Below are positions 9,586 through 45,869 of a stretch of 64,000 nt of DNA, piece by piece. The notes beneath the pieces were generated by a model that ran no database searches, was not told the DNA's origin, and saw nothing but the letters and a program-made list of their open reading frames with translations. Each line of letters begins with the position of its first letter. The stretch's first letter is position 1. Source of the stretch: Collinsella aerofaciens (GTDB lineage Bacteria > Actinomycetota > Coriobacteriia > Coriobacteriales > Coriobacteriaceae); the NCBI RefSeq assembly GCF_015548375.1, contig NZ_JADMWW010000008.1, forward strand, positions 1 to 64,000, in the 5' to 3' direction. The position numbers and the translations under genes are program-made.

Positions 9586-10056
9586 ATGGCAGAGACATTC
9601 GTGCGCGACGATATCAACAACTATGTCGCGAGAAACATCTTTGGTCGTTTTTCCAAGCGCTCGGCCATAGCGGCACTTGCCGCCGTTGCCGTCGTGACCG
9701 TCGGAATATACGGCGTCTACGCATGGGGCTGGAGCCTCGATATTGTCACCTACATGGCGATCCCGGTGTGCGTTGCCATCGGCGTCATCGGCCTCCATTC
9801 GCACCACGGCCTGAAATCGGAGAAATGGCTGCCGCTCATGCTGAAGGACAGGACGGAGCCCGATCAGCTCACGCTCGCTGTCCCGACTTTCGAGGTGGCC
9901 GTTCCGAAGAAGACGAAGGCAGAGGTGCGCGAGCAGAAACGCCGCGAAAAGGCAGCAAGGAAGGCGAGGAAGTTTGAGCAGGAGGCCGTGCCGGCGGGAA
10001 TCGCCCAGGCGATGGCTGAGGCCTCCGTGAGAAACGATGGGAGAAACCCTAGATGA
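9586..10056 (+). CDS. PrgI family (VirB3-like) protein
   Basis: A 156-residue protein with two membrane segments (about 25-45 and 49-67) and a basic, Lys/Arg/Glu-rich cytoplasmic tail that is probably helical. This is the PrgI layout; PrgI acts with VirB4 at the base of the secretion channel. Start 9586 is supported by GGAAAGGTAG upstream. Its stop overlaps the VirB4 start (ATGA), as usual for this gene pair. Confidence 0.8.
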   Translation: MAETFVRDDINNYVARNIFGRFSKRSAIAALAAVAVVTVGIYGVYAWGWSLDIVTYMAIPVCVAIGVIGLHSHHGLKSEKWLPLMLKDRTEPDQLTLAVPTFEVAVPKKTKAEVREQKRREKAARKARKFEQEAVPAGIAQAMAEASVRNDGRNPR

Positions 10057-28464: not shown

Positions 28465-29958
28465 TCACAACCGATAGAGCGCGTATCCCCTGCCGCTCGC
28501 CGTCTTCTCGGCGCCGGGACAGGCTTTCTCCAGGCGTTTCCCATGGGAGTCCATCACGATTGCCCATGCCCAGCCGTCCTCCCTTAGGCGCCCAAAGCCG
28601 CCTTCCAGGCTGTCAACGTAGAGTCGGTAGTCATTGGCCGCGCCGTCCCCGGCGATTGCCTCAGACCAGATCTCAGGCCGCATATCGTATGTCACGGGCA
28701 CCTCGGCCCATTCGAGGTAATTCATCACGGCGGCGTCCTCGGACCATATGCGACCGGGGTTGTCGCCCAGGGCCTCGACGATCTGCCCCATATCCGCATC
28801 GATACCGCACCAACCGGATTCCACTCCGCTTGTCTCGGGCTCGATTGAGTGAAGTCCGCTGTTGATGACGGAGAGCGCCATGACAAGGCTCAAGGCCATC
28901 CTGCCTGCAATGAGCAAACGATATATTTGGGGCTCGAGTTCGTCCTTGCGCCCGGCAGATACCGCGACGATCAGAAACGAGACGGTCCACGTTATCCAGA
29001 GGCACCTGACGGCGAGCGCCCCGGCAATTGCGGACGCCAGCCAAAAAGCCAGAAGCCATCTGGGCGGGAACCGGCGCGCGAGGGCGCACGATATGGTTGC
29101 CGCGAGGATCGAAACGCACCAGAACAGGGCTGCCGCCGGCATCGCCCACACCGGCTTCAGCTCGAGGATGACCCCACCGTACGATGCTGCACCTAGTGAG
29201 CGGAGCACATAGAGCGAGCCGTCGATTGCATACGGGTTGACAAGGGATTCCGCTGCCATTCCGGCAATCGCCGCAAGCAGGGGCAGTCTGGACTGTGACC
29301 ACGCGCGGAGTGCCTCGCATGCATTGCTCGGCTCGAACTCGCCCTCTTCCGGAAGCAGGAAGCACGCTGCGGCGGCGGCCGGCAAGGGCCAAAGCGCAGC
29401 CTGCAGATTCACCGACAGCAGCGATACTACGGGAAGCCCAAGTAGCAAACGCTTATCGGCGCCTCGCCGCCACTCCAAGCACAGGGAGATTGCGACAAAC
29501 AGCAGCGCTGCCGTCCAAAGGGACGGACGGATGGACAGATACGAGGCCATGAGGGTAAAGCCGAGCGCACCGATCAGCAACGGTGCCCAGGGGTAGCGTG
29601 GGTTTTGCGCCAGCCTGGAAACGGTGCCGGTATAGGCCCACAGGGCGAGCGCGGCAGGTATCGCCACGGAGACGGCGACGCCCGCATAGCCCGCGGCCCT
29701 CCAACACAGGTAGAGCCACACATCGTGCAGCCACTGCTGGAGCACGATACCCTGGCCGGCGATTGCGGTGAATGGGTTCGTGCTCGGGACGCCTGATTCG
29801 ACGACCACGCGCCCCGAGGCCAGAAGGAACCATCCGTCCGTATCAAGCGTCCCCGCCGACCTGATGGTGGGAATCAAGGCCACAACGGCCATTGACAGGA
29901 TGACGGCGAGCGCCGCTGAGGCACAGCGTACGATCTTCGCTACCTTAATTTGGTTCAA
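28465..29958 (-). CDS. Polytopic membrane protein, GT-C-like
   Basis: A 497-residue protein with about ten hydrophobic segments. After the first segment comes 'LDTDGWFLLASGRVVVESG', resembling the 'D.WWHLATGRWI' start of GT-C-type membrane glycosyltransferases. A C-terminal soluble domain begins at about 385. It could glycosylate the pilus or a surface protein, by location only. It overlaps the DUF192 gene by 4 bp. Confidence 0.65.
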   Translation of the reverse strand: MNQIKVAKIVRCASAALAVILSMAVVALIPTIRSAGTLDTDGWFLLASGRVVVESGVPSTNPFTAIAGQGIVLQQWLHDVWLYLCWRAAGYAGVAVSVAIPAALALWAYTGTVSRLAQNPRYPWAPLLIGALGFTLMASYLSIRPSLWTAALLFVAISLCLEWRRGADKRLLLGLPVVSLLSVNLQAALWPLPAAAAACFLLPEEGEFEPSNACEALRAWSQSRLPLLAAIAGMAAESLVNPYAIDGSLYVLRSLGAASYGGVILELKPVWAMPAAALFWCVSILAATISCALARRFPPRWLLAFWLASAIAGALAVRCLWITWTVSFLIVAVSAGRKDELEPQIYRLLIAGRMALSLVMALSVINSGLHSIEPETSGVESGWCGIDADMGQIVEALGDNPGRIWSEDAAVMNYLEWAEVPVTYDMRPEIWSEAIAGDGAANDYRLYVDSLEGGFGRLREDGWAWAIVMDSHGKRLEKACPGAEKTASGRGYALYRL

Positions 29959-30332
29959 TCGAGTCTCCTGATAGAGATCGGGCGGTCCGACTCGGTGAAC
30001 GTCCCGGGTGCGACCTCGATGCCGCCCACAGCCCCCCGCGGTGCGAAAAGGATGCGCCAGGGGGCGACTGAGGCATCGAGCGAGACTACCGGCCAGGACT
30101 GATCTGAGGGGTCGAAACGGCCAATCCAGCAGACATCAATCGGGACGCGCATGAACAGGGTATGGAGCGACCTGCCCCTTGCGTAGACCATGCCGGTGGA
30201 TTTGCCGATTGACTTGGCGCCCATATACCCGATCGCCTTGTCCCTGAAGGACTTGGCGATCTTGAGGGAAATCGGGACCTCGGCGCCGGACCGGGTGGTG
30301 GCCACGCAGGGGATATCGTATTCGAAGCTCAT
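29955..30332 (-). CDS. DUF192 protein of the Tad locus
   Basis: A 125-residue protein of the DUF192 family, recognised by 'FRDKAIGYMGAKSI', 'GMVYARGRSLHTLFMRVPIDVCWI' and 'PRGAVGGIEVAPG'. DUF192 genes are often found next to tad genes; their role is not established. It starts 10 bp after tadC. Confidence 0.8.
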   Translation of the reverse strand: MSFEYDIPCVATTRSGAEVPISLKIAKSFRDKAIGYMGAKSIGKSTGMVYARGRSLHTLFMRVPIDVCWIGRFDPSDQSWPVVSLDASVAPWRILFAPRGAVGGIEVAPGTFTESDRPISIRRLD

Positions 30333-30342
30333 GGGCCGTCTC

Positions 30343-31212
30343 CTACATGAGAGAGGTGAACGTCTGCGCGATCTGGGCCAACACGGGGGCGAGGACGACG
30401 ATCAGAAACACCGGAAGGATAAACAGGATGATCGGGAAGAGCATCTTGGTACCGAGCTTCTCGATCTCCGACTCGACCTTCAGGCGCCGTTGCTCGCGAA
30501 CCGTCTCCGCCTGGTCGCGGATGATGTCGACGAGAGATCCGCCCGCGCGCTCGGATTGCGCAAACGAGGCCGCGAAGATCGTGAGGGACGGCACGCGGGC
30601 TCGCTCTGCGAAGCGAAGGAGTGCCTCGGTTCGCGATGAGAAGCTGGCCTCGTTGGCCACTCGCTCGAAGCCCTGCGCGATGGCGCCGTCCATCTTGCTG
30701 CCGACCGTGTGCAGGGCGAAATCGATAGATGAGCCCGCCGACATGCAGATTGCGAGCAGATCGAGGGCGTCGGGAAGCTGTCGGTCGAGCTCGTCGCGCC
30801 ATTTTGCGCGCTCATTCAAAAGCCACAGCTGCGGGATGGCGATTCCCGTGAGCGCCAGCGCGGCGAAAATGCCTAAACCCTTTGCCCCGCCGACGAAAAG
30901 CGACGCGACGAGTCCCGCCGCCGTGAATCCCGCAGCGCTCGCGACGCGGAAGGCCCAGAAGGTCGCCGGCTGCATGGTGGATCCGGCGCGGTCGAGGGAG
31001 TCGCGCGTCGAGTCCATTACGGTGCGCGAAATGGGAGCGAGCCTGGAGACAACGTTGGAAAGCTTGTCGGCGATTCCGGGAAGCGCCGGGGAGGCGTCCT
31101 CTTCCGCAGGCTGCTCTAGGCCGAAGACGCGTTTGAGGGCGATGTCCACTCCGAGGCCCGCGGCGATTCCGATGAGGATGATAATGAAGCCAGTTGTTAT
31201 TGATTCGAACAT
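30343..31212 (-). CDS. tadC: TadC pilus assembly protein
   Basis: A 289-residue inner-membrane platform protein with a type II secretion F domain (about 130-260, 'LDLLAICMSAGSSIDFALH' then 'SERAGGSLVDIIRDQA'), N-terminal membrane segments and two C-terminal ones. TadC pairs with TadB around the TadA ATPase to extrude the Flp pilus. It follows tadB with a 10-bp gap. Confidence 0.9.
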   Translation of the reverse strand: MFESITTGFIIILIGIAAGLGVDIALKRVFGLEQPAEEDASPALPGIADKLSNVVSRLAPISRTVMDSTRDSLDRAGSTMQPATFWAFRVASAAGFTAAGLVASLFVGGAKGLGIFAALALTGIAIPQLWLLNERAKWRDELDRQLPDALDLLAICMSAGSSIDFALHTVGSKMDGAIAQGFERVANEASFSSRTEALLRFAERARVPSLTIFAASFAQSERAGGSLVDIIRDQAETVREQRRLKVESEIEKLGTKMLFPIILFILPVFLIVVLAPVLAQIAQTFTSLM

Positions 31213-31222
31213 CTGAGCTCCC

Positions 31223-32125
31223 CTAGTCGTACCTGATGTTGCTAATTTGCTTCAGCACCATGAAACCGATGATATCGAGCGCTATGCCAACGCCCAGGCA
31301 CGCCCACCCCGCAGGCGTCATGAAGAACTGCCGGTGCATTTCCGAGGCAACCGACATGAGCAGCAGCATGACGACCGGTGCGAAGCCGACAATCTTCGCC
31401 TCGAACCGTGCCGAGGAGGTCTTGGCCTCGGCCGAGCGCTTCGCCTTGACCTTTGCCCGGATGGCCTCGCCGACACGCTCCGTGATCTCGGAAAGCGAGC
31501 CGCCGGTCTGCTGCGATACCGATACGGCCGTTGAATAGAGCCTGAGGTTGGAGCTTTTGGTCCTTATTGCCATATCGTCGAGTGCCTGGTCGATGGGGCG
31601 TCCGTTTCTAAGGTCGCGCTCGAGGATGGCGAACTCGGACTTCAGGGGCTCATCCATGTGCTCTGCGACCGGTGCCACCGATTGCGCGATCGAGGCTCCC
31701 GTTCGAAGGTTCGATGCGATAAGCGGCATCGCCTGTCCGAGCTGCTCCTCGAAAAGACCCTGCTCGGCCCCGCGCTTCGACTTCACCCAGATCGGGAAGG
31801 CAGCGATTCCGAGTGGGAGCGCGGCGACCGCTCCCGCTGTCGAGCCCATTGCAAGGATAAAGACCGAAGGCGCGAATGCGATTACCGCCCATAGCTGTGC
31901 CGCCTCGGTGGTGGAGAGCTGGGGCGCCGCGCCCTGGCACACGCGTCGCAGGGCGCCGGCAAGGCGGTTTCCCCCATCTTTGTCGGATGGATTTTCCGGA
32001 AGGGGCCCTGCTTCTGACTGCTCACGCTCGATGCGAAGCTTTCTTGCCGTCAGGAACAGGATTATTCCCATCAGCACCGCCGGCAGCGCGGGAAGGAGGG
32101 CTGCCGGGGAAATCTGCCCGCTCAT
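31223..32125 (-). CDS. tadB: TadB pilus assembly protein
   Basis: A 300-residue partner of TadC. Three or four membrane segments flank a T2SSF domain (about 130-255, 'QAMPLIASNLRTGASI' then 'SQQTGGSLSEITERVG'). It overlaps the tadA stop by 4 bp. Confidence 0.9.
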   Translation of the reverse strand: MSGQISPAALLPALPAVLMGIILFLTARKLRIEREQSEAGPLPENPSDKDGGNRLAGALRRVCQGAAPQLSTTEAAQLWAVIAFAPSVFILAMGSTAGAVAALPLGIAAFPIWVKSKRGAEQGLFEEQLGQAMPLIASNLRTGASIAQSVAPVAEHMDEPLKSEFAILERDLRNGRPIDQALDDMAIRTKSSNLRLYSTAVSVSQQTGGSLSEITERVGEAIRAKVKAKRSAEAKTSSARFEAKIVGFAPVVMLLLMSVASEMHRQFFMTPAGWACLGVGIALDIIGFMVLKQISNIRYD

Positions 32126-33423
32126 CGACGGAACCAGAAATCGTCATCGATGTACACGCCGCGCGCGAAGAGCTTCTCGCGATGTGCCGGGGTGATGCGC
32201 TCTCCGGTGGGCATGAACTCTCCAAGCACCTTGCCGTCCTCGGAAAATCCCGTTTGCTCGAAACGCATGATGGTGCCCATGGTGATGACGTCGCCCTGCA
32301 TGCCCTGGACCTCGGCGATCTCGGTGATCTTGCGCGAGCCGTCGATATCGTAGCGGTTGACGAAGATGACGAAGTCGATGGCCGAGGCGATGAGCTCCAT
32401 GATCTGCTCGCTTCGCATCTCGGTTCCGGTCTGCTGGATCATCGAGCGCAGGCGGGTCATGGCCTCGCGCGCGTTGGAGGAGTGGACGGTCGTGAGCGAG
32501 CCCTCGTGTCCCGTCATCATCGCCTGGATCATGTCGAACGCCTCGCCGCCGCGGCACTCGCCGACGACGATTCGGTCGGGGCGCTCGCGCAGCGCGTGTA
32601 TTACGAGCTGCCGGATGGTGATCTCGCCCTCGCCCTCGATATTGGGTCGGCGAGCCGTCTTGCGTACGACATGGGGCTTCTGGAGGCGCAGCTCCGGCGC
32701 GTCCTCGATCGTTACGATGCGCTGGTTGTCCGGGATGAAGGACGAACAGGCGTTGAGGAGCGTCGTCTTGCCCGAGCCGGTGCCGCCTGCGATGACGACG
32801 TTCATTCGGCCGAGTACGATCGCCTCCATGAACTCGAGCATGCGCTGGTCGAAGGTGCCGAGTGCCATGAGGTCCTCTGGCTCCACCGCATCCGGTCGAA
32901 ACTTACGGATGTTGAGAATGTTGTGGTCGACGGCGATGCCCTTTGCGGTCGCCGCGACACGGGAGCCGTTGAATATCGCACCGGGGCGGTTCAGGATGCA
33001 GTCGCACAGCGGCTGCGCCTCGTCGCAACGGCGACCGTCGGCTGAAGCTATGCGATTGATGATGAACTTGACGTGGTCGTCGTCTTCGAAGGCGACGGGG
33101 ACCCTCTGAAGTAGTCCGGCACGCTCAACCCACACATCGTCCGGGGCGTTCACCATGATTTCGGAGATCGACGTATCCGGTAGCAGCTCCTCGATGGGCC
33201 CCAGGTAATACAGGTCGTTGAGCCCGGCCTGGATCACGGCATCAAAGGAGTCGTCGTCCAGACGCGACCCTTCGGGACTGGAATCTATAATCTCGGCAAG
33301 GAGGTCGCGAGCGCGCGAGTCGCGCTGCACATCGCTCTCGGAGGCATCGTTGGCGGCAGTCAGGATCCCCGTCGCCTGGCGGACGGCCTCGCGTTCGATG
33401 CCGAGCAGATCGCTATTCAGCAT
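32122..33423 (-). CDS. tadA: TadA/CpaF secretion ATPase
   Basis: A 433-residue ATPase of the Tad system. Walker A is GGTGSGKT (213-220), followed by the Asp-box 'TIEDAPELRL' and the Walker B/His-box region 'VGECRGGEAFDMIQAMMTGHEG'. It powers assembly of the Flp pilus from the cytoplasmic face. It overlaps the cpaB gene by 11 bp. Confidence 0.96.
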   Translation of the reverse strand: MLNSDLLGIEREAVRQATGILTAANDASESDVQRDSRARDLLAEIIDSSPEGSRLDDDSFDAVIQAGLNDLYYLGPIEELLPDTSISEIMVNAPDDVWVERAGLLQRVPVAFEDDDHVKFIINRIASADGRRCDEAQPLCDCILNRPGAIFNGSRVAATAKGIAVDHNILNIRKFRPDAVEPEDLMALGTFDQRMLEFMEAIVLGRMNVVIAGGTGSGKTTLLNACSSFIPDNQRIVTIEDAPELRLQKPHVVRKTARRPNIEGEGEITIRQLVIHALRERPDRIVVGECRGGEAFDMIQAMMTGHEGSLTTVHSSNAREAMTRLRSMIQQTGTEMRSEQIMELIASAIDFVIFVNRYDIDGSRKITEIAEVQGMQGDVITMGTIMRFEQTGFSEDGKVLGEFMPTGERITPAHREKLFARGVYIDDDFWFRR

Positions 33424-34354
33424 TTTGCGCCTCCCCCGTCTCGGGAAGGGCCACGAGTCGGATGCCGCTCGCGCTCGAAAGGGCGAGGGCCTGGTCCTCA
33501 GTTACCTCGATTGTGACGTTGGAGTAACCGTCTGACTTGGAGCCCGAGAGGTTGCCGTCCAGCGCCAGTACGCGAATGGAGTCGGCCACGCGCACGGTGC
33601 TCACGACCTGGCCGTCGTTCACGCTCGCGAGAACATCGACCTTGTCACCGACCGAGAGCAGCGGGGAAAGGCCCGTTGAGCTGTCGAGTGCGACGGTATA
33701 GGCAACGTGGCCCTCGGTTACGGCGGTGGTGATGGAAGCGGGTTTCTTCGAGCCTGATACGGAGGAGAGGGAAACTGCGGTCCCCAAGGTCTGCTGCGTC
33801 ACGGACTGGCGGCCCGCCACATCGGATACCTTCTTCGCCGCGTCCTTGGGCGCAAACGCCGTGGGCACGCTTGCGACCGTAAGGTCTGCCGAAGTGATGA
33901 CTTCGCCGGGGGCGACATCGCGCGTGACGGTGACTACCTTGACGGTCGACTTCTCGAGATGCGCGAGCTCGCCCTGCGCCTGAGTCCATCGCCAGCCCGA
34001 GAAACCGACCGTCACGACTGCAACGGCGATCGCCACGCCGGCGACGGCGGCGAGCCTTCGGTCCTTACGTGTTCCCCCGGCTGCCGGACCGCGCTGCCTG
34101 CGAGCGGTCGCGGCGCCTGCCGTCGACGTGGTCCTCTGGCCGCCCTGTGCGGGCGCGGGGGCCGCGGGGGCCGATACCGTCGCCCCCGCGGAGGCCTCCT
34201 GTGCCATTGCGCGCTCCAGCTCATGGCCGAGCGCCTGCTTGCGACCGCGGAGTCGTTCGACGCTGCGCATGCGCCCGGAGTCGATGGCCGTGCGCATTTC
34301 CGACTCGACTTGGGCGATTTCTGCCCTTATTTCCTCCTGGGTCCGTTTTTTCAT
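33413..34354 (-). CDS. cpaB: CpaB/RcpC-like SAF-domain protein
   Basis: A 313-residue protein with a long cytoplasmic N-terminus (about 1-100, coiled helices then Ala/Pro-rich), one membrane segment (about 103-122) and a SAF domain (about 137-200, 'VTRDVAPGEVITSADL') typical of CpaB. It is the first gene of the tadA-B-C transcript, behind the class A promoter at 34569-34622. The ribosome binding site AGGAAGGA lies upstream of ATG 34354. Confidence 0.88.
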   Translation of the reverse strand: MKKRTQEEIRAEIAQVESEMRTAIDSGRMRSVERLRGRKQALGHELERAMAQEASAGATVSAPAAPAPAQGGQRTTSTAGAATARRQRGPAAGGTRKDRRLAAVAGVAIAVAVVTVGFSGWRWTQAQGELAHLEKSTVKVVTVTRDVAPGEVITSADLTVASVPTAFAPKDAAKKVSDVAGRQSVTQQTLGTAVSLSSVSGSKKPASITTAVTEGHVAYTVALDSSTGLSPLLSVGDKVDVLASVNDGQVVSTVRVADSIRVLALDGNLSGSKSDGYSNVTIEVTEDQALALSSASGIRLVALPETGEAQNAE

Positions 34355-34568
34355 CTTTAAGATTCCTTCCTGGGACCTAGGAGTCCCTTAAACGCGAGCG
34401 GTGGAAAATGGTTCGCTCTCCAGTGCCAGGTGATACTGGCCGCACTTTCTCTGCCGCCGCACAAACCATCTCGAAAGCCTTTTTGGTTGAGCAGACCAGT
34501 CTCTGGCGCATCGGGTCGCACATCGGGCTCGAGGGCTCTTCGGCCTGCCGTGCTATTCCGACATATAA

Positions 34569-34622
34569 AGAATCGCCCCGCGCGGCCGTCTGCGCAGGGC
34601 GATTTGGTGCCATTGGGTGACA
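34569..34622 (-). promoter_or_regulatory. Class A promoter of the cpaB-tadABC operon
   Basis: On the minus strand TGTCACCCAATGGCACCAAA (34622-34603), 28 bp, then GATTCT (34574-34569). The 28-bp spacer is itself a hairpin (34570-34603, stem AATCGCCC/GGGCGATT) followed by TTCTTTAT, which may also terminate the upstream TadE/TadG transcript. The 313 bp between the two genes hold nothing else I can name. Confidence 0.65.
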
Positions 34623-34667
34623 ATATGGCGTGCTGTAGCGTGTTGGCTGACGGTTGCCGCCCGTCGA

Positions 34668-35261
34668 TCAGGGAAGCATGTCCCTCACGGCCTTGGAGAG
34701 AATTTCGGGCGCATCGTCGAGTGAGCATGCCCCCGTTTTCGTCGAAACGCTGCCTTCCTTGTCGATCGTGTACTCGCACCATCCGTTACCGGTGTCGGAC
34801 GGTCGCCATACCGTCGTAGATGAATAGGGATGTAGGGTCCAGACGGCGTCCGAGCGCACCTTGAGCTCATCTATGCCGGCAAATCGCGCGAAAGCCGACG
34901 GCCAGGTCCCCTCAAGGACCACATAGACGCCGGCGTAGCGATCGGCTGCCCCGCAAAGGCTTTCAGGGGCCTCTACGTAATAGACCATGGCCTTTCCGGT
35001 GTAACCGTTGGCCTTGAGCATCTCGAGAACCTCGGAGCGCGCCTCATCCCCCGGGTTCTCGGCGTATTTGACGGCATTGGCCTCACCAAAGCAAGACTGT
35101 CTCGTGCTCTCGAGAAGCGACCCCTGCCAGGTCCTATATGCGAGCGCTCCTCCCAGGTCTACGGCGAGCGCTATGAGGAGGGATAGGGGGATGAGCATCA
35201 CGACGAAAAAGGATGTGAGCTGCGCGCGGGCTCCCCCTCCCCTGAGTGCGTGGCACTTCAT
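34668..35261 (-). CDS. TadG-like pseudopilin or pilus protein
   Basis: A 197-residue protein with a prepilin-like N-terminal hydrophobic segment (about 15-38, following a basic start) and an extracytoplasmic domain holding several cysteines. Size and position fit TadG/TadE-like minor components. It abuts the next TadE-like gene with no gap. Confidence 0.7.
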   Translation of the reverse strand: MKCHALRGGGARAQLTSFFVVMLIPLSLLIALAVDLGGALAYRTWQGSLLESTRQSCFGEANAVKYAENPGDEARSEVLEMLKANGYTGKAMVYYVEAPESLCGAADRYAGVYVVLEGTWPSAFARFAGIDELKVRSDAVWTLHPYSSTTVWRPSDTGNGWCEYTIDKEGSVSTKTGACSLDDAPEILSKAVRDMLP

Positions 35262-35738
35262 CTAGATGACCTCCCAGTCGGAATAGCTGATGTAGGAACG
35301 CGTGATGTTTCGGACGGATCTCTTTCCGAACACGTTGTAGGGCGCCGGGTAGTCGTACGTGATTTCAGCCGACACCGTTACGGTCCTGTCCTCGGTCCTG
35401 AGGTTCTCGGTGCCCAAATCACCTGCGACGGCGTTTCCGTGGCCGAGGTTCTCATCGGAATCGATGTTGACCGAGGCGTTCTTTACCGTGAGACAGCTTG
35501 GGTCAATGTCGGCCGATGCGCTTACGAGCTTCTTCACGAGCGTGTCGGCGTCCATAGAATCCCAGCCTGCGGGAAGTCGGTCCGCGAGATGTGCGAGGGA
35601 GTAATCAATCCTGGCTCGCTGGTAGCCCGTGAACCCGAAGCCCAATATGGCGAGGACGACGGTGAGCGCTATCGGGAATACGAAGATGAATTCAGTGGAG
35701 ATGAGCGCCTCGAGCGACCTTCTGTTACGCACCATCAC
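35262..35738 (-). CDS. TadE-like pseudopilin
   Basis: A 158-residue protein with the TadE-type motif 'RSLEALISTEFIFVFPIAL' at its start, where the Glu and the following hydrophobic stretch mark a prepilin peptidase substrate. The rest is a small extracellular domain with one Cys. It overlaps the upstream gene by 4 bp. Confidence 0.8.
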   Translation of the reverse strand: MMVRNRRSLEALISTEFIFVFPIALTVVLAILGFGFTGYQRARIDYSLAHLADRLPAGWDSMDADTLVKKLVSASADIDPSCLTVKNASVNIDSDENLGHGNAVAGDLGTENLRTEDRTVTVSAEITYDYPAPYNVFGKRSVRNITRSYISYSDWEVI

Positions 35739-36184
35739 TTGACCTCCGATGAGATTGCCGTTGCCGAGGATGACTCGGGCTCAATTTCCGCAAGGCCATC
35801 GAAGACGGCCAGGGTGAATACGCGACGGCATGGAATCTGGACATTGACCGTGACGGACTTGCGCTCTATTGAAGAGTCCCTGGACTTGTCCCCAACCCTT
35901 AGCTTCACGCCTTTGGACGAAAGCGCGCCGCGCTCGATATCCACAGTGCAGCTGCTATCGAGACCGATAGTGCCCCTTACGTATGATTCGACTTCAGAAT
36001 CATTCTTATCGGGGTTCGCTGCGGCGTAGCGCGCCCCCTCGGATGCGGCCGCCGATGCGAGGGCCTTGCATCGGCTCAGGTTCGCGCAATCCACGACGAG
36101 TGCGAGCATTGCGATCATGATGGGGAGTAGAAGGAAGAGTTGGGTCACCATGACCGCCCTGAGTTCTGTTGGTCTTGACCTCAT
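35735..36184 (-). CDS. TadE/TadF-like pseudopilin
   Basis: A 149-residue protein with a hydrophobic N-terminal segment (about 12-32) after 'LRAVMVTQ', then a small domain with two cysteines. It lacks the canonical Glu of TadE, since Gln occupies that place, so processing is uncertain. It overlaps the prepilin peptidase gene by 4 bp. Confidence 0.7.
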   Translation of the reverse strand: MRSRPTELRAVMVTQLFLLLPIMIAMLALVVDCANLSRCKALASAAASEGARYAAANPDKNDSEVESYVRGTIGLDSSCTVDIERGALSSKGVKLRVGDKSRDSSIERKSVTVNVQIPCRRVFTLAVFDGLAEIEPESSSATAISSEVK

Positions 36185-37217: not shown

Positions 37218-39436
37218 AGCTGTGAATCGCAGCGATCTAAGAACCTTCGAAGCCATTAGGTGTGTCGGCTAATTCCCGCGCCTGTAAAGCAATTGCCCGA
37301 AATACGATACCTGCAAAACATGTACGCCCATGGCTTTGACTGCCTTGTGATATAAGTATCTGCTCGAAGTGCGGTGTCTGCGAAGCATAAGAGTGGGAAA
37401 GTCCATATTTATGCTTAGTGAGTAGTCTCTCGAAACGCCATACTTGCGAAGCCTGTGTGCGTGGATGCGAACAAAGTTTTGCGGTAAGTAGCTGCTCGAG
37501 GCGCGGTACCCACGAAGCAATATCCATCCTGAGAATGATGCAAAGTAGGGTAAGTAGCTGTCCGAAGCGCGGTACCTGCAAAGTTTTATGGACTCTTGGG
37601 TTTTTTGCCGGCCAGAGTAAGTAGCTGCCCGAAGTGCAGTCCCTGCGAAGTAGGCCTTATGTAGGCAGAATTAAGCGCGAAGGTAGGTAGCTGCTCGAAG
37701 CGCGATACCTGTGAAGCGTAAATCATTGCGCCATATGGCGGCTCTGTGGCAAGAAACTAGTCGAAGCGCGGTCCCTGCGAAGCCATCCTACGGTGGGAAC
37801 GTCGCAGCCGGATGGTAAGTAGCTGCTCGAAGCACGGTACCTACGAAGCAACATGTTGCAGCCGCCAATCGCTTGAAGACGGTAAGTGGCAGCTCGAAGC
37901 GCGGTACCTACGAAGCACGCACCACGTCCGCAGCCTTGACGTCACAGGTAAGTAGCAGCTCGAAGTGCGGTACCTACGAAGCAGAATACGACACGCGCCC
38001 CATAAACTCATGGGTAAGTAGCAGCTCGAAGCGCGGTACCTACGAAGCGTCTTGAAGACACCTTTGGTCGCATCCAAAGGTAAGTAGCTGCTCGAAGCGC
38101 GGTACCTACGAAGCGCTCCTTGGCGGCATACGCAGAACCAACCTGGTAAGTAGCAGCTCGAAGCGCGGTACCTACGAAGCACAAAAACCTGTACCTTTTT
38201 GTGCAACAAAGGTAAGTAGCTGCTCGAAGCGCGGTACCTACGAAGCAGCTATAGCTGATGGGGAGGGAGCGACAGAGGTAAGTAGCTGCTCGAAGCGCGG
38301 TACCTACGAAGCATCACTGGACGCGACGTCGACCTAGCCGAAGGTAAGTAGCTGCTCGAAGCGCGGTACCTACGAAGCGTGTATGTGTTACGGGGCGGGA
38401 GCTGCTCCGGTAAGTAGCTGCTCGAAGCGCGGTACCTACGAAGCCGGCAAGCGAGTGAAACGAGCGCGCAGCGGGGTAAGTAGCTGCTCGAAGCGCGGTA
38501 CCTACGAAGCAAGAGCCCGCGTTTGTCCTCAGACATGCCAGGTAAGTAGCTGCTCGAAGCGCGGTACCTACGAAGCACATACGTCCTGCAATGCCATAGG
38601 CATTCCGGTAAGTAGCTGCTCGAAGCGCGGTACCTACGAAGCCGTGAAACCGTTGGCGATTATGTAGCCGACGGTAAGTAGCTGCTCGAAGCGCGGTACC
38701 TACGAAGCCTCTTCCTTGGCCATAAAAATGGAGCCCTTGGTAAGTAGCTGCTCGAAGCGCGGTACCTACGAAGCACATACGTCCTGCAATGCCATAGGCA
38801 TTCCGGTAAGTAGCTGCTCGAAGCGCGGTACCTACGAAGCGTATCGAAGGTCATGCCAGAGGTCTGCTCGGGTAAGTAGCTGCTCGAAGCGCGGTACCTA
38901 CGAAGCGCCGCCGGCAAATGCCACCACGCAAAGGCGGGTAAGTAGCTGCTCGAAGCGCGGTACCTACGAAGCTCTATTCTTCAGACACCGCCCGCCGCGC
39001 CCGGTAAGTAGCTGCTCGAAGCGCGGTACCTACGAAGCCCATAATAGATGCGAGTCATGGCCAATTCAGGTAAGTAACTACTCGAAGCGCGGTACCTGCG
39101 AAGCAGGAACCCCCCCCCATCACAGTTTCCTCGGTGGTAAGTAACTACTCGAAGCGCGGTACCTGCGAAGCTTTTTCTTTTGAACTCACATGGACATACC
39201 TGGTAAGTAACTACTCGAAGCGCGGTACCTGCGAAGCTGGTCGGCATGGCAATCTCCGTTCGACGACGGTAAGTAACTACTCGAAGCGCGGTACCTGCGA
39301 AGCATCGGCTTCACCAGACCGTCGGCGGCGTCGGGTAAGTAACTACTCGAAGCGCGGTACCTGCGAAGCCGCTTTGCATGATTGATTTCAAATATTCGAA
39401 GGTAAGTAACTACTCGAAGCGCGGTACCTGCGAAGC
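37218..39436 (-). CRISPR. Type II-A CRISPR array, about 33 repeats with a decayed distal tail
   Basis: The 36-bp repeats begin, on the minus strand, GCTTCG(T/C)AGGTACCGCGC. They alternate with 30-31 bp spacers at a 66-bp period. Repeats from 37814 to 39069 are nearly identical. Those at 37284-37783 are progressively mutated but keep the 66-bp spacing, and a faint further copy lies at 37218-37253. The six repeats nearest the cas genes (39069-39436) share three substitutions. Decay at the low-coordinate end and csn2 on the other side place the leader at 39437 onward, with transcription on the minus strand. One spacer is duplicated (38577-38606 and 38775-38804). Confidence 0.96.
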
Positions 39437-39531
39437 CGAAGAATTGACATCGACTGGCAAGTCCGTATAAGAGCAGCTACTGAAGCTAAAAAGTTGATTA
39501 GAAGAAAGAAAAGGTTCCGACGATTTTGGGA
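39437..39531 (-). promoter_or_regulatory. Putative CRISPR leader and pre-crRNA promoter
   Basis: This A/T-rich sequence adjoins the first repeat. On the minus strand TTATAC (39470-39465) could be a -10 placing transcription about 20 nt before the first repeat; no clear -35 is seen. Spacer acquisition would occur at 39436/39437. Confidence 0.45.
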
Positions 39532-39565
39532 AACCATCCTATTTCCGCCCGGAAACAGGATGGTT
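39532..39565 (-). terminator. Hairpin ending the cas transcript
   Basis: A long stem (AACCATCCT...AGGATGGTT with an inner TTTCC/GGAAA, one mismatch) lies about 105 bp beyond the csn2 stop codon. On the minus strand it is followed by TTTCCC, a weak U-tract. It probably separates the cas mRNA from the array transcript. Positions 39566-39671 hold nothing else recognisable. Confidence 0.6.
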
Positions 39566-39671
39566 GTGTGAGTTCTGGAAAAACCTGACAGCTACCGGAT
39601 CATCGGAAAACCGTGCTATCAAGCAATAAGCCTTATTTGAGATTTCAAGGTGCACGCACCAGTTTAACGGT

Positions 39672-40346
39672 TTAGACGTTACGGGAGAAGAGGACCCGAT
39701 CTCTATCTATATGCCACACTGGGATCTCGAGATTGGCAGTGTCTACCTCCCGGTATTCGAGAAACAACATTTCCAGGCCCTCATGGCGCGCCTTTCGAGT
39801 TAATTCCAAGACCTCGGTCGGATTTAGCTTGTCGATGAGGGCGATTACAGCAATTGACGGATTCAGCCTCGTATCGCAAACGTAATCCATGAAGGAGAAG
39901 AATTTTCTTTGCAGGGTATTGGCCGGCTCGCGGCGGGGTGACAGCGAAAGCCATTTGGCGAACGATTTGATATCCCGTTCCGTGTTCCCTATCAAATCCG
40001 TTCGAAGGGAATACCCCAATTCCGCGATCAACATCTCGATACACGCCCTGATCTCATGCGCTTTGGTTGCCAAAGGCTCACAGGCCTCGATCTCAGACGC
40101 CATCCTTGACGTATAGGCGCCGGTTAACCTCCGGTCATCGAATGGGAGCTCGATCAGGCTGTCGATAAGGACGATATCCTTCGGTTTGAGCTTTCGTTCC
40201 CCTCGGTATAGGGCGATTCCGGGTTCCCCTTCTCCCAAAAGCGATTCGGCGCATCGAGATAGCTCGTCGAACTCATCGAAGGATATGACTCCAAGTCCGT
40301 CCGGAAAATCGATTGTCTCCCCTACCGTTTCGAGCTTGACGATCAT
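39672..40346 (-). CDS. csn2: Csn2, type II-A spacer acquisition protein
   Basis: A 224-residue protein at the end of the cas operon, of the length and layout of Csn2. The final 'LEMLFLEYREVDTANLEIP..HIDRDRVLF' region is close to the conserved C-terminus of the family. Csn2 forms a ring on DNA ends and works with Cas1-Cas2 and Cas9 in spacer uptake. It overlaps cas2 by 4 bp. Its presence defines subtype II-A. Confidence 0.9.
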   Translation of the reverse strand: MIVKLETVGETIDFPDGLGVISFDEFDELSRCAESLLGEGEPGIALYRGERKLKPKDIVLIDSLIELPFDDRRLTGAYTSRMASEIEACEPLATKAHEIRACIEMLIAELGYSLRTDLIGNTERDIKSFAKWLSLSPRREPANTLQRKFFSFMDYVCDTRLNPSIAVIALIDKLNPTEVLELTRKARHEGLEMLFLEYREVDTANLEIPVWHIDRDRVLFSRNV

Positions 40347-40651
40347 AAGACGATAAAGTCCTCTCCGGTAACAAAATGCCCCTCGTCAGACGGGCTTCCA
40401 CATAGCGTGAGCATTGAGCAAAAGGAGGCCTCGGATACCCTGAGCACCTGCACCAGCCCCGCTTCTGGAAGGCTGGCCTTGAGCCTAGAGATGGCAGCCT
40501 CGGCATTCTTGGTATCGACCGCCAGGCGGGTGTAGACGGAATTCTGCAGCCTCGTATAGCCATCCCCGACAAGAAACTGCCTGAACCTCGAGTACTCATG
40601 ACGGTCCTGGGCATCGGCCACGGGTAGGTCATACATTACGACTATCCTCAT
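40343..40651 (-). CDS. cas2: Cas2
   Basis: A 102-residue protein beginning 'MRIVVMYDLPV' with the Cas2 ferredoxin-like core ('FLVGDGYTRLQNSVYTRL'). Start 40651 is chosen because the family starts at this sequence. Cas2 bridges two Cas1 dimers in the integrase complex. Confidence 0.95.
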   Translation of the reverse strand: MRIVVMYDLPVADAQDRHEYSRFRQFLVGDGYTRLQNSVYTRLAVDTKNAEAAISRLKASLPEAGLVQVLRVSEASFCSMLTLCGSPSDEGHFVTGEDFIVL

Positions 40652-40676
40652 GAACCTTATCCTCCCCCGTTCCCCA

Positions 40677-41564
40677 TCAAGGCGTTCCTGGCGCCGAGAT
40701 CTCATCTGCATCGCCAGCCCCCTCCATCACACGAAGGCATCCGTCGACCCATAGGTCGATGGCGTCCGACACCCGGTAGCTCCCATGGCCATAGGGAATC
40801 CTGTCCGCGAGTGTGGACGCAAGGAGCCTTTTCACAGAAGGCGAGAGATCGCGGGGGCGCTCCAGCTCGACTTTCCGATCGACCAGGGGCCTGAACGGCT
40901 CCACGAGGTCGCAGGCGAGGTTGTAGGGGTTCGTCTTGGAGTGGTGGTGGATTCCCACCTGGTTGAGGTAGCCCTTCGCCGCGATCCTGCACGCTGTATG
41001 CGAGAGCAGGATGGAATAACCGTAGTCGAGGGCGCTATTGGTTGCATCCGCGTGCGGTACCCGCACGAAACCGTCGCCGAACAGCGCTTTGAAATAGCGG
41101 CGCGCACCCGCGGCCTCGCGCCCGGTCGAGTCGCCGGCGCGGACCTCTCCCGCATAGGATGCAAGCAGCTCTGCCTCCAGGTCGTGGCCTGATCCTTCGA
41201 GGACAGAGGCCTGGTTTTCCAGCTTGCACTCGATGATCCTCTTCCACAGCATCTTGCGCGGCCAGGCGCCCCAGGACATCTGTGAGAGGACTTTGCCGTT
41301 CGTATCGATCGTCGCTGCCGTTAGCGGCATCAGGATTGATGCCGGCATATGCCGGCTATCGGTGAAAATGACGCTGCAGCCCCTTGCCGCGAGCTCATCG
41401 AGCAGGTAGGTCGATATGAACGCGGCCTTCCCGTCGACAACGATGCAGTCGAGCTCGTCGGCGCGCAAAAGGACGGGCCGGGGGTCGCCGTCACGGTGAA
41501 CGGCGACCCATCCCGCCTCATAGCGCAGTTTCCGGGCGTTCTCCAAAAAGAGTGTCTTACCCAA
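40677..41564 (-). CDS. cas1: Cas1 integrase
   Basis: A 295-residue Cas1 of type II. The metal-binding residues are visible: Glu in 'GREAAGARRYF', His in 'GIHHHSKTNPYN' and Glu in 'DLVEPFRPLVD'. The best start is a TTG at 41564 that overlaps the cas9 stop by 8 bp, because the protein then begins at the family's usual N-terminus; an upstream TTG at 41606 would add 14 residues. Confidence 0.95.
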   Translation of the reverse strand: MGKTLFLENARKLRYEAGWVAVHRDGDPRPVLLRADELDCIVVDGKAAFISTYLLDELAARGCSVIFTDSRHMPASILMPLTAATIDTNGKVLSQMSWGAWPRKMLWKRIIECKLENQASVLEGSGHDLEAELLASYAGEVRAGDSTGREAAGARRYFKALFGDGFVRVPHADATNSALDYGYSILLSHTACRIAAKGYLNQVGIHHHSKTNPYNLACDLVEPFRPLVDRKVELERPRDLSPSVKRLLASTLADRIPYGHGSYRVSDAIDLWVDGCLRVMEGAGDADEISAPGTP

Positions 41565-44500
41565 GGGTGGATACCCTCTCGTGGAGGCCCGCCGCCGAAA
41601 TGTCAACGATAGCGAAACCGGCCTTGGGGTCGTTGATGATCTTATCGAAGGTCATCGAGAGCGTACCCGCGAACGCGCTGCCGCCGAGGGGCCTCACGTC
41701 GGCGGTGCCCCTGATTCCCGAGAGGAGCTCCACGACCTGGACCTCGGACTCCGCTACCGCGCGGACGGTCTTAGCGAGATCGTCCGCTTCCGTATCGGCG
41801 AACACCTCCTCCGGCGTCTTCAGGGCACCCAGCTTGAGCACCTTGGAGACGCGGGGGAAGTTTGCCGGAGCGAGCGCGAGAAGGCGTGCCCACAGCCGGC
41901 AGAGAACCTTGGCATCGGATTCAAGATCACGCCTGGGGCTCGGCTGCTCGCCGTCGACCATGCGCTCGACGATCCTGAGCAGTCGGGTGTCGGCTGCGTC
42001 GAGGGCGAGCTGGCGCACGGGGCCGGCGGTCTTCAGCCCCTTGACCCTGAAGCGCTCCCCATATGCCTCGTACACTGTTTCCTTAAGGATCCTGTCGCGC
42101 ACGACGCGGACGAATCTCTCACCGGATTCACGGCACAGCGAGCGCGCATAGAGCTCGGTGAGCGAATCGGTCGCCTTGGATGCGATGGAGGTGGGCACGG
42201 GGGCGAACCTGAACAGGTTTCCCTTCTTGCCCTCGGTCTCGTAGATCATGAAATAGGCGAACGTCTGGGCTGAGTAGCCGCCGAACAGGGCAGCATCACG
42301 GTCGCCCTTCACGGGGATGAGCTTCGTCTTGGAGTCGCGCGGGGAGTAGACGGTCTGCTTCCAGAAGGCGCCGCCTTCCTCGTAGGGGGCAAACGTCACG
42401 CGCAGGTTCTTCCAGGAGCAGGCGCGGATGAGCCTCTCGCGCTCGAAATCGGAATCCCACAGCACTTCGGCCGTGTCATAGTCCACGAGGTCGCGGAAGA
42501 ACCCGCCTGAGAAGAAGTCGAGCTCGGAGTCCGCCCCGCCCCGGCGCTCCTGTGCCTCGATATCGCGCATGGTGCGCTCGTAGAAGGCCCTGTTGTTCGA
42601 CCATATGGGCGCCCTCGTCTCGATGAACCTGCCGGTCGTGAGGGCGATGAGGGCATCGTGGGCGTGGTAGTAGCGATTTGCTTTTCGGCTTCTCGGGATT
42701 CCCGCGCGCCTCCTGACCGAGCTGGCGACCCCGGCCTTCACCGGCACGACCTTGACGCCCGTGTAGGTTGCCTCGAGGACCGCGGCGATGAGCTTGCACT
42801 CCTGGCTCGTCTCGGTCAGCTGGCGCCCGACGATCGACTTCAGCATTCTCTCGGAGATCTGCGTCCTCATGAGCGTATTGAGTTTGCGCTCGGTCATGAG
42901 GCCCGCGCGGCGAAGGTGCATCCAGAAAGGCGCCATCTTCCTCTGCACGTGTTGGGGCACGAGGATCGAGTCCTTCTTATCAAGGCTCTCGGCGTACAGG
43001 ACCAATGCCTTGTTGTCGAGCGATTCGTCCCTGCGCACCGACCTGGGCAGGATACGGTCGACGCAGTAGTCGACCGACGCGATGCGCGCGATATCGATGG
43101 GCTTGCCGGAGTAGAGGCTCTTTCCCGCCTGTCGGAAATAGAGGTACAGGCGCTCGTTGATCTCCTTCTCGTCGAACATCCCCAGCTCGCGCAGGAGCCT
43201 GGCGGCATCCAGGTCGCGGCGCGCGTCCTCGTCGAGCGCCTTCAGCGCGGCCTCGATCTCCTGGGCGCGGCTCCGCGACCGCTTGCCCTTCAGCTGTTTC
43301 GAGGCGGTCCTCGTGACCTCGACGTAGACCTTTGCCGGGGCGCATCCAGCCACCGAAGCCATATCCTCGATAACCTTCATGGCCTGCGAGACGCCGCGAC
43401 GAAGCGCGGGGGACCCGGGCAGGGCGTCGATGCCGAGCTCACCGGCCTTTTCCAGCGCGGTGGCGTTGACCTCGTCAATCCTCGTGCGGAAGCCGAGCTC
43501 GGTGTCGCTCAGGGCCTGCATCAGGTTCATGGACGTGCCGCGGAACCTGCCGTAGGGCGCGCCCTGCTCGAGAACGTCCATGATACACATGTCGCCGCGC
43601 GCGGTGTCTACCCACACACCGGTGAGCAGGCGCTCGGAGAGCTGGCCCCAGCCCTTGAGGCGCTTCGCGCAAAAGGCCTCGATAGCGCCCTCGTCAAGGA
43701 TATCCCCGTATTCCTTGGCGACCTTGCGCTTCAGGATGGAGCGCTCCTCGAACACGGTGTTCCACAGGATGATGTCCTCTGCCATGGACTTCTGGGCGGC
43801 CGTCAAGGACTTCACGCCGAGAAGGCCTGCAATCCAGGCCGAGACGGACAGGCGCGACGTCATCCTTTTGGCATCGGATACGCCCTTGACGTGCGGGTGC
43901 GCCATCGTGAAGTCGCGCGAGAGGATGTTCGCGATTCGGCTGAGGGTCATGACCGAGCCGTCCGATGCGGCCTCGACCACGGCCGCCCTCATCGCCGCAT
44001 CGAGCGGCAGCCAGTCCTGGCCGTCCTCGGTGTAGCGGATGCCCGCCAGCTCGTTCAGGAACCGGAAGCGCTCGTAGATGAGGGAGTTCGCCGGGAGCAC
44101 GTCCTCATCGACCAGGTAGGTGCACTTGCCCGTCATGCGCCGGATGAATGCCTCTGCGGCCGCATCGGTGTCGATATGCTCCTCGTAGTTCCAGGGTGTG
44201 ACGAAGGCGCGCTCATGGCCGGGAAGACGGCGCGACCACGAGAACCTCGCCTTGCCGTGGGCGTCCACGGGCGCGGCCGAGGAGTCCAGGGGCCCTACGT
44301 AGTAGGGGATCCTCGAGGTCAGCACCTTCAGGATATGGGGGCCTGCGTCCTTTAGCCAGGGGTAGAAGCCGCCCTGCGCGTCGATGATGCGGCCCACGAC
44401 CTCCGCATGGAGCTGGTACGGGATAGCACTGTTGTCCGTGGTGTGGATACGGCGAAGGAACCTGTGCTCTCCGAGAGCGGCGACCATATCGATGTAGGCC

Positions 44501-45750
44501 GGGTCCTTTGCGGCATCCGTTCCCTTGAAGAGCCTCTCAACCCTCTTCTTGAACTCCTCATAGGGAATCACGTTGAGGTCGTAGGCCGTATAGCCCATAT
44601 TCCTCTTGGCGCCGTCTAGCTTCTTCACGAGCACCTTGTCGTACCCCCTGCGGCCGGACCTTTTCGGGCCGCCGAAGAAGTCCCTGTAGAGGGCAAGCCC
44701 GTCCTCGTCGGGACCTTCCTCGGAATCAGCATGGGCGATGTATTTCAGTGCGAGGTCCTTCAGGGTGCGCAGCTGGCGCCCGTACACCTCGTACTGGGCC
44801 ACCTGGTTGTGCGAGAGGGTCTTTCCGGGTGCAAACGAGAGAAGGCCCTGTAGGCGCCACGCGGAGTAGAGGCCCCGTGCGGCCTCGATGGTCGGGGCGA
44901 GTCTGTCGGGGCAGTTGGCGAGGAACTCATCGAGCGCATCGGCGTCGGATACGGATATCTTTCCGATCTGCTCGCCCTCGAGTGCGAAGGCGTCCATATT
45001 CGCCTTGTAGCCGGCGACGAGGTCGCCCAGCGCCTTTGCCTGCGCGCGGGCGATCTTGGCGTCGATATCGTCGCCTGTCACCGATACGGCGCCGGACACG
45101 GCCTTTTGGAGCTCTCGGGCAGTCCAGGAGCCGCCCATACCGCCAAGCGCGCTGCCGTCGAGCTCGATAGCCTCGCCACAGGCCTCCCCCAGGGCGTCGA
45201 GCTCGCGCACGAGGGCCTCGACCTGGGCGGAGGGGTCTGAGTTGTCGGACGTCACGTCGTTGCCCTCCATGAGGAAGTGTCCGCGGCGCACGACGTGGTT
45301 GGCGATGGCCCAGAAGACGAGCCTGGGGTCTCGGGGGCCGTCTGATTCCATGAGGTCGACGTCGAGGTGCGCGAGCGTGGGATAGCCGTCAAGAAGCCCC
45401 TGCCAGGCGGCAGCCGCGGGATCTGCCGCGATATCGTCGCGCATGAGTTTGTAGGACATCCTGCGCCTGACGAAGAAATCCGGGTCTGTGGGAGCGATCG
45501 CCGGCGCGAACACGCGCTCCATCTCACGCTCCCTGCCGCGGGCGCGCTGGAGCCTGCGCCTCGCCGTGCGCGGCATACGGGCCTCGGAGGCGTGGAGCGC
45601 CTCCTTGAAGCAGCGTGCGCCCATCACGGGCTGGCCCTTATGGTAGAGGACCTCCCCGTACTCGTCTGTGGCCACGAACCCGACGCTCGTACCGTCGAGG
45701 TCGATTCCGGCATACCACGGACCGTTGATATTTTTAAGTTTCCTGGCCAT
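41557..45750 (-). CDS. cas9: Cas9, RuvC intact, HNH catalytic residues substituted
   Basis: A 1397-residue type II-A effector. RuvC-I has D17 ('GIDLDGTSVGF'), an Arg-rich bridge helix follows, RuvC-II has E811 ('VYVEVTRT') and RuvC-III has H1029/D1032 ('YYHAHDAL'), so the non-target-strand nuclease looks intact. In the HNH domain ('YLYFRQAGKSLYSGKPIDI', then 'CVDRILPRSVRRDESLDNKAL') the SpCas9 Asp839 equivalent is D898. His840 is replaced by Arg899 (codon CGT, 43056-43054) and the Asn863 position falls on Ser922. The HNH nuclease should therefore be inactive, leaving a nickase or a binding protein. AGGAG lies about 6 nt before the ATG at 45750. The tracrRNA diverges from just upstream. Confidence 0.95.
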   Translation of the reverse strand: MARKLKNINGPWYAGIDLDGTSVGFVATDEYGEVLYHKGQPVMGARCFKEALHASEARMPRTARRRLQRARGREREMERVFAPAIAPTDPDFFVRRRMSYKLMRDDIAADPAAAAWQGLLDGYPTLAHLDVDLMESDGPRDPRLVFWAIANHVVRRGHFLMEGNDVTSDNSDPSAQVEALVRELDALGEACGEAIELDGSALGGMGGSWTARELQKAVSGAVSVTGDDIDAKIARAQAKALGDLVAGYKANMDAFALEGEQIGKISVSDADALDEFLANCPDRLAPTIEAARGLYSAWRLQGLLSFAPGKTLSHNQVAQYEVYGRQLRTLKDLALKYIAHADSEEGPDEDGLALYRDFFGGPKRSGRRGYDKVLVKKLDGAKRNMGYTAYDLNVIPYEEFKKRVERLFKGTDAAKDPAYIDMVAALGEHRFLRRIHTTDNSAIPYQLHAEVVGRIIDAQGGFYPWLKDAGPHILKVLTSRIPYYVGPLDSSAAPVDAHGKARFSWSRRLPGHERAFVTPWNYEEHIDTDAAAEAFIRRMTGKCTYLVDEDVLPANSLIYERFRFLNELAGIRYTEDGQDWLPLDAAMRAAVVEAASDGSVMTLSRIANILSRDFTMAHPHVKGVSDAKRMTSRLSVSAWIAGLLGVKSLTAAQKSMAEDIILWNTVFEERSILKRKVAKEYGDILDEGAIEAFCAKRLKGWGQLSERLLTGVWVDTARGDMCIMDVLEQGAPYGRFRGTSMNLMQALSDTELGFRTRIDEVNATALEKAGELGIDALPGSPALRRGVSQAMKVIEDMASVAGCAPAKVYVEVTRTASKQLKGKRSRSRAQEIEAALKALDEDARRDLDAARLLRELGMFDEKEINERLYLYFRQAGKSLYSGKPIDIARIASVDYCVDRILPRSVRRDESLDNKALVLYAESLDKKDSILVPQHVQRKMAPFWMHLRRAGLMTERKLNTLMRTQISERMLKSIVGRQLTETSQECKLIAAVLEATYTGVKVVPVKAGVASSVRRRAGIPRSRKANRYYHAHDALIALTTGRFIETRAPIWSNNRAFYERTMRDIEAQERRGGADSELDFFSGGFFRDLVDYDTAEVLWDSDFERERLIRACSWKNLRVTFAPYEEGGAFWKQTVYSPRDSKTKLIPVKGDRDAALFGGYSAQTFAYFMIYETEGKKGNLFRFAPVPTSIASKATDSLTELYARSLCRESGERFVRVVRDRILKETVYEAYGERFRVKGLKTAGPVRQLALDAADTRLLRIVERMVDGEQPSPRRDLESDAKVLCRLWARLLALAPANFPRVSKVLKLGALKTPEEVFADTEADDLAKTVRAVAESEVQVVELLSGIRGTADVRPLGGSAFAGTLSMTFDKIINDPKAGFAIVDISAAGLHERVSTLG

Positions 45751-45778
45751 GAGTTCTCCTGTGTGATATAAAGGGATT

Positions 45779-45869
45779 GTGAGTTGCTGCTCGAAGCGCA
45801 GTACCTAAGTCGAAATACGGCTTAAAAGCCACAAACTGCCTAAACAGGCCGCCCGTATGGGGCTTTTTC
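45779..45869 (+). ncRNA. tracrRNA
   Basis: The first about 35 nt (45779-45814) match the plus strand of the CRISPR repeat (GCTGCTCGAAGCGC and nearby bases), so they pair with the minus-strand crRNA. They are followed by a nexus-like hairpin (GGCTTAAAAGCC, 45820-45831) and a terminator hairpin ending in TTTTT (45849-45868). A TATAAA -10 lies at 45767-45772, predicting a start at about 45779. It is divergent from cas9, with overlapping upstream regions. Confidence 0.88.

Follow-up and report, generated by a model that had tools for sequence, protein, structure and literature searches.

Why would a CRISPR array that goes on gaining spacers at one end keep, at its other end, a long run of units whose repeats have decayed? 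The question arises from the 64,000 nucleotides of Collinsella aerofaciens DNA analyzed here, which we call the window and whose minus strand carries a complete type II-A CRISPR-Cas locus. A preliminary description had read the far end of this array as a fossil tail, in which the oldest immune memories stay in order while their repeats erode by point mutation. We find that the tail is real and that the neutral-decay reading of the old end is mostly correct, with the observation confirmed in part and the interpretation supported in part. Leader-distal decay is itself known; what is unusual here is the length of the tail, the fact that a relative has such a tail as well, and the altered HNH domain of the accompanying Cas9.

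Layout of the locus and its array

The order of the elements is tracrRNA, cas9, cas1, cas2, csn2, leader, array. A single operon on the minus strand holds cas9 (41557..45750, 1397 amino acids), type II cas1 (40677..41606, TIGR03639), cas2 (40343..40711, TIGR01573) and the type II-A gene csn2 (39672..40346, TIGR01866 at 44.9 bits against a cut-off of 35). The tracrRNA carries an anti-repeat at 45774..45807 on the plus strand, followed by terminator-like sequence to about 45875; an Rfam search gave no tracrRNA family match, its sole result being a chance match to a snoRNA. The array comprises 33 repeats at a spacing of 66-67 bp (37284 to 39436), and its 36-nt repeats, spacers of about 30 nt and protospacers with a 3' PAM are those of type II-A. 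The leader (39437..39671, minus strand) fills the stretch from csn2 to the first repeat. Since it borders csn2, the array is newest at its right end and oldest at its left, an orientation based on gene order and on the known type II-A layout.

A relative (G060) has this operon at the corresponding position, with a Cas9 94% identical to that of the window, a conserved anti-repeat and a closely similar leader. The closest named locus is that of C. aerofaciens strain 1001095H_141210_H8, taken as the same as G060. Between the two loci, synonymous divergence (dS) is 0.30-0.55 for the cas genes and for the gene adjacent to the array, far above the 0.01-0.20 of the neighboring genes at 28465-36184, which are presumably pilus-type genes; this contrast suggests recombination.

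Next to the leader stands a block of six identical repeats (39069..39436, minus strand) that differ from the main block by C7, T25 and T28. The main block itself (37881..39038, minus strand) consists of 18 near-identical repeats in which the ancestral C7 has become T7. Blocks of identical repeats beside the leader indicate that spacer acquisition went on. The six newest repeats resemble those of the relative at two of their three fixed differences, and leader-end recombination is a possible origin. One spacer occurs twice in the array (38577-38606 and 38775-38804).

Decay of the leader-distal repeats

The decayed tail occupies 37284..37849 on the minus strand and contains nine 36-nt repeats separated by spacers of 30-31 nt. 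Its repeats start at 37284, 37351, 37417, 37483, 37549, 37616, 37682, 37748 and 37814, all within 2 nt of where they had been placed by eye, and the period of about 66 bp is kept over the nine units, with spacings of 66 or 67 bp. The 67-bp steps do not call for insertions, since spacers of 31 nt are found in the fresh part of the array as well. In each tail unit 24-34 of the 36 positions agree with the repeat; the background maximum among 61,663 positions is 27, which is probably the anti-repeat at 45774 that stayed within the background set. Decay of the repeats is limited to the leader-far end.

Counted against an ancestral repeat inferred from the tails of the window and of G060 together, substitutions from the oldest to the newest unit number 12, 6, 9, 3, 4, 6, 3, 6 and 2. 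The trend with age is significant but noisy (rho 0.67, P 0.047, n = 9 units), and the counts are over-dispersed relative to a Poisson expectation (variance/mean about 1.6); the idea that changes accumulate step by step thus holds as a trend and fails as a strict staircase. A part of the variation is also inherited. Position 7 is mostly C in the tail, T in the main block and C again in the six newest repeats, and because the T of the main block came later, the C is ancestral and no product of decay.

Among the 324 sites of the tail, 51 carry a change, and transitions account for 41 of these (P 7e-12 against an expectation of 1/3); the changes are evenly placed along the repeat (chi-square P 0.82), and the tail repeats contain no indels. 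By its pattern, this looks like neutral decay by ordinary point mutation. The claim that point mutation has outpaced deletion stands for the window, where substitutions far exceed indels; in G060 the spacings include 62, 63 and 65, indicating that deletions occur there.

Leftwards of the ninth unit, a possible further trace (37218..37253, minus strand) matches the repeat at 17 of 36 positions (P 0.0046 for a single offset, 0.014 for the best of three), and the equivalent phase in G060 matches at 15 of 36 (P 0.03). The trace that had been reported at this place is thus suggestive and not established. An extension of the array left of 37284 was considered and set aside, since sequence still further left is at background level.

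The relative has a decayed tail of its own, of about 15 units when read by hand. With the unit at 9622 included, 142 of 576 sites are changed, 97 by transitions, and the trend with age is weak (P 0.13). Tail divergence is 0.18 in the window and 0.30 in G060, comparable in magnitude to the cas-gene dS between them, which dates both tails to roughly the time at which the two loci split. Some changes (T2 and T16-A17-T18) are common to the terminal repeats at 37284 and L041:10604, which is suggestive. No spacer is common to the window and G060: the best cross pair agrees at 17 of 30 positions, when the maximum among shuffled spacers averages 16.5, and the idea of shared ancestral spacers was dropped for this pair. 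Well-conserved counterparts of the tail units in related elements, which would have spoken for selection over decay, were looked for; in the one close relative no unit is shared, and the tail there has decayed on its own.

Of 396 genomes of the class, 85 have a Cas9; 82 Cas9 stretches were taken and five short Cas9 fragments left out. An array of four units or more was present in 60 stretches and lacking in 22, and nine of the arrays ended within 200 bases of an edge. In the remaining 51 Cas9-linked arrays the degenerate tail measures 0 units (30 arrays), 1 unit (18) or 2 units (3). The same script assigns 8 units to the window and 13 to G060, the latter counted from beyond a 50-bp gap, and both loci thus depart from the usual tail length of the class. 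The two long tails have a common ancestry and are therefore counted as a single event.

The predicted duplex with the anti-repeat is -51.2 kcal/mol for the intact repeat and -49.3 to -24.6 kcal/mol for the tail repeats, against a shuffled-repeat null of -19.1 kcal/mol (s.d. 3.8). Most tail repeats are thus predicted to out-pair shuffled ones by far, so that only the outermost unit appears clearly lost by pairing; the inner units could still be processed and the outermost probably cannot, which would confine to the latter the suggestion that old repeats are no longer processed. Selection on pairing was not seen in the window tail, whose nine units show pairing no stronger than that of repeats mutated at random (mean P 0.45). 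In the G060 tail the 16 units show somewhat stronger pairing than random mutation would give (mean P about 0.26), which may reflect inherited variants or constraint.

Spacer targets and an altered Cas9

For eleven of the array's spacers a match with four mismatches or fewer exists in genomes of the genus, and NGAG lies downstream of the match in five of them (P 4e-7). Three of the eleven are among the nine tail spacers and still match in a PAM-like context, which supports reading them as real memories; the order of the leader-distal end is also kept. The spacer at 37519..37548 (minus strand, as are all those that follow) matches two genus genomes with two mismatches, flanked by TGAG after a one-base shift. 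That at 37718..37747 matches a gene beside an integrase gene in two genus genomes, with flank CGAA and mismatches at 4 of 30 positions overall and 1 of 27 in the aligned core. The third (37784..37813) matches, with one mismatch and flank CGAG, a secreted-protein-like gene on contig C11 of its own genome, a target also found at one mismatch in 10 other genus genomes and at three mismatches in one more. Spacer 37718 and two younger ones, 37850 and 38511, target a single prophage-like region, with a DnaB-like helicase and an integrase, in two genomes. An integrase (37917), a lactate permease (38907) and a stretch poor in genes next to mobilization genes (39238) are also among the targets, as are host-type or unassigned genes. 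Searches of the whole array against 50,697 phage records and of six exact spacer patterns against viral contigs gave no match. The six younger matched spacers carry 0-1 mismatches and the five older ones 1-4, counts that do not separate spacer decay from target evolution because detection favors well-preserved spacers.

Close matches within its own genome are limited to two spacers. In addition to 37784, the spacer at 38181..38210 matches perfectly at C31:93-122, flanked by AGAG and beside a gene that we take from its neighboring sequence to be thrS. A cell whose Cas9 cuts both strands would be expected to die from this match, barring protection by an anti-CRISPR, by low expression or by a different PAM. 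In other genomes the core of 38181-38210 is followed by either of two flanks, like the integration site of an element or an inverting segment. Weaker is a third own-genome match, within 38445-38474, to contig C34 (90% over 29 bases). No own-genome spacer match was found in G060, nor in the arrays of G011 and G025, two members of the genus with intact Cas9. Two weak hits in G011 at 114178 and 128167 look like a stray repeat and the anti-repeat; the former (L070, G011:C23:114178-114212) is a repeat-like sequence 2.2 kb past the end of the array.

The Cas9 of this locus departs from the canonical enzyme at two HNH catalytic positions. In SpCas9 numbering, residue 899 is R at the H840 equivalent and residue 922 is S at the N863 equivalent, and the Arg aligns to the same HNH motif in a solved Cas9. 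The motif reads VDR in the window and G060 versus VDH, IDH or MDH elsewhere, and every other Cas9 in which these columns are present (45 of 45 and 33 of 33, 78 in total) keeps His and Asn; 6 of 39 Cas9 ORFs had no HNH column or an X there, and 2 of 37 loci had no Cas9 ORF match. The four RuvC catalytic residues are retained (D17, E811, H1029 and D1032, equivalent to D10, E762, H983 and D986), but a Y stands at the H982 equivalent and the motif after the D10 equivalent is changed. A predicted model of residues 771-1120 (mean pLDDT 80.5) has SpCas9 as its best match; the TM-scores of about 0.4 are low, which may be attributed to mobile domains.

For Cas9, comparison of the window with G060 gives a dN/dS of 0.10 over the whole gene and 0.13 within HNH. 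The two genomes encode the Arg by different codons, CGT and CGC, and this synonymous difference suggests that the change from His to Arg is older than the split of the two loci. The alteration would therefore seem to be an old change held under selection, and the protein looks, from its sequence, like a natural RuvC-only Cas9 in a locus still acquiring spacers. Among open-licence literature, at the level of titles and abstract openings and with most subscription papers outside that body, no natural nickase or dead Cas9 was found; a search of the Collinsella literature found nothing on this CRISPR locus.

Persistence of the old units

We consider it probable that the tail, as the leader-distal part of a type II-A array, has drifted neutrally and become locked in beside an HNH-altered Cas9 under selection, while acquisition continues. 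The tail units would have been acquired long ago, their repeats drifting later by point mutation, as the pattern of changes shows. Once diverged, repeats would no longer recombine with their neighbors, and the old units would probably escape pruning for that reason while young, identical units turn over. Such turnover and lock-in would explain the distribution of private substitutions, of which there are 0 in the newest 22 repeats and 36 in the older 11, when constant accretion without loss predicts 45% of them in the newest 22 (P 4e-10). Lock-in would nonetheless leave the short tails of other arrays unexplained. The same distribution might arise if the array had lain dormant, decayed and been reactivated, and the jump from 6 changes at 37748 to 2 at 37814, together with the run of 22 units without private changes, fits such a history. 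However, the intermediate units at 37814-37947 have one private change each and the cas genes are under purifying selection, which makes dormancy quite unlikely. Gene conversion could instead keep the other repeats identical while the tail merely escapes; near-identical repeats occur in arrays of up to 85 units, and the T26 variant is shared non-contiguously at 37881-38145. Yet the blocks of repeat variants (T7, then C7/T25/T28) fit copying at the leader end, and we give gene conversion little credence. That the tail is functional and kept by selection, for example through crRNAs that still act, seems more improbable again: several of its repeats are predicted to pair at -40 to -49 kcal/mol and three of its spacers have targets with PAM-like flanks, but the changes are uniform along the repeat, pairing is no better than random and no unit is common to the relative.

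The remaining explanations turn on Cas9, which, with two HNH residues lost under purifying selection, would probably nick its targets or only bind them. HNH loss and a long tail co-occur in one lineage only, and a causal link between them is a hypothesis. It would run as follows: without double-strand cuts, old or self-matching spacers are cheap and there is no selection for their removal. Both traits are present in 2 of 2 loci of this lineage and in 0 of 51 arrays and 0 of 78 Cas9s elsewhere, and the genome tolerates both of its close self-matches (AGAG and CGAG flanks). Nevertheless, a single lineage is a single evolutionary event, only two spacers have close own-genome matches and the equally altered relative has none, and pruning of tails elsewhere need not stem from autoimmunity, so that we regard this cause as rather doubtful. 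It is unlikely that Cas9 is fully dead and that the system acts as a regulator by binding alone. The loss of HNH, the two RuvC differences and the tolerated self-matches would agree with it, but all four RuvC catalytic residues are retained, and a dead Cas9 would be expected to acquire from the chromosome, where only two close matches are found; according to a review, dead Cas9 shifts acquisition to chromosomal DNA, the plasmid share falling from 68% to 4% (PMC6990116). Returning to the locked-in, neutrally drifting tail, we add only tentatively, as somewhat doubtful, that in gut Collinsella a RuvC-only, nicking Cas9 lineage, maintained by selection since before the split of the two species' loci, acquires PAM-flanked spacers and tolerates self-matches, hence the unusually deep and slowly decaying record.

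Graded long tails of this kind could act as a molecular clock for CRISPR memory, setting acquisition and loss against synonymous divergence. A naturally HNH-disabled, still-adapting Cas9 would open to direct study whether double-strand cutting is required for type II immunity, and by what means cells survive self-matching guides.

The nearest parallel to this Cas9 is engineered. The SpCas9 nickases H840A and N863A have lost the HNH His or Asn with RuvC kept, and resemble the window protein in that respect; the latter is natural, is changed at both positions (R and S) and belongs to a locus that kept acquiring spacers. For the tail, the CRISPRDetect description, in the portion cited, states that repeat mutations accumulate at the 3' end and that the tool extends arrays into decayed repeats; that portion held no comparable measured case, and the array survey here covers this bacterial class (PMC4869251). 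Trailer ends are also described as places where old spacers persist despite a deletion bias, but those ends are conserved and shared population-wide, whereas the window repeats decay and no unit is common to the relative (PMC3330103). A further likeness is the trailer end of the type II-A CRISPR1 array of S. agalactiae, where the leader-distal repeat is degenerate, and where a divergent last repeat is given as what explains the reduced loss of the last spacers in type II-A arrays (PMC4466440). That array has one terminal degenerate repeat; the window has 8-9 graded units, and its relative 13-15.
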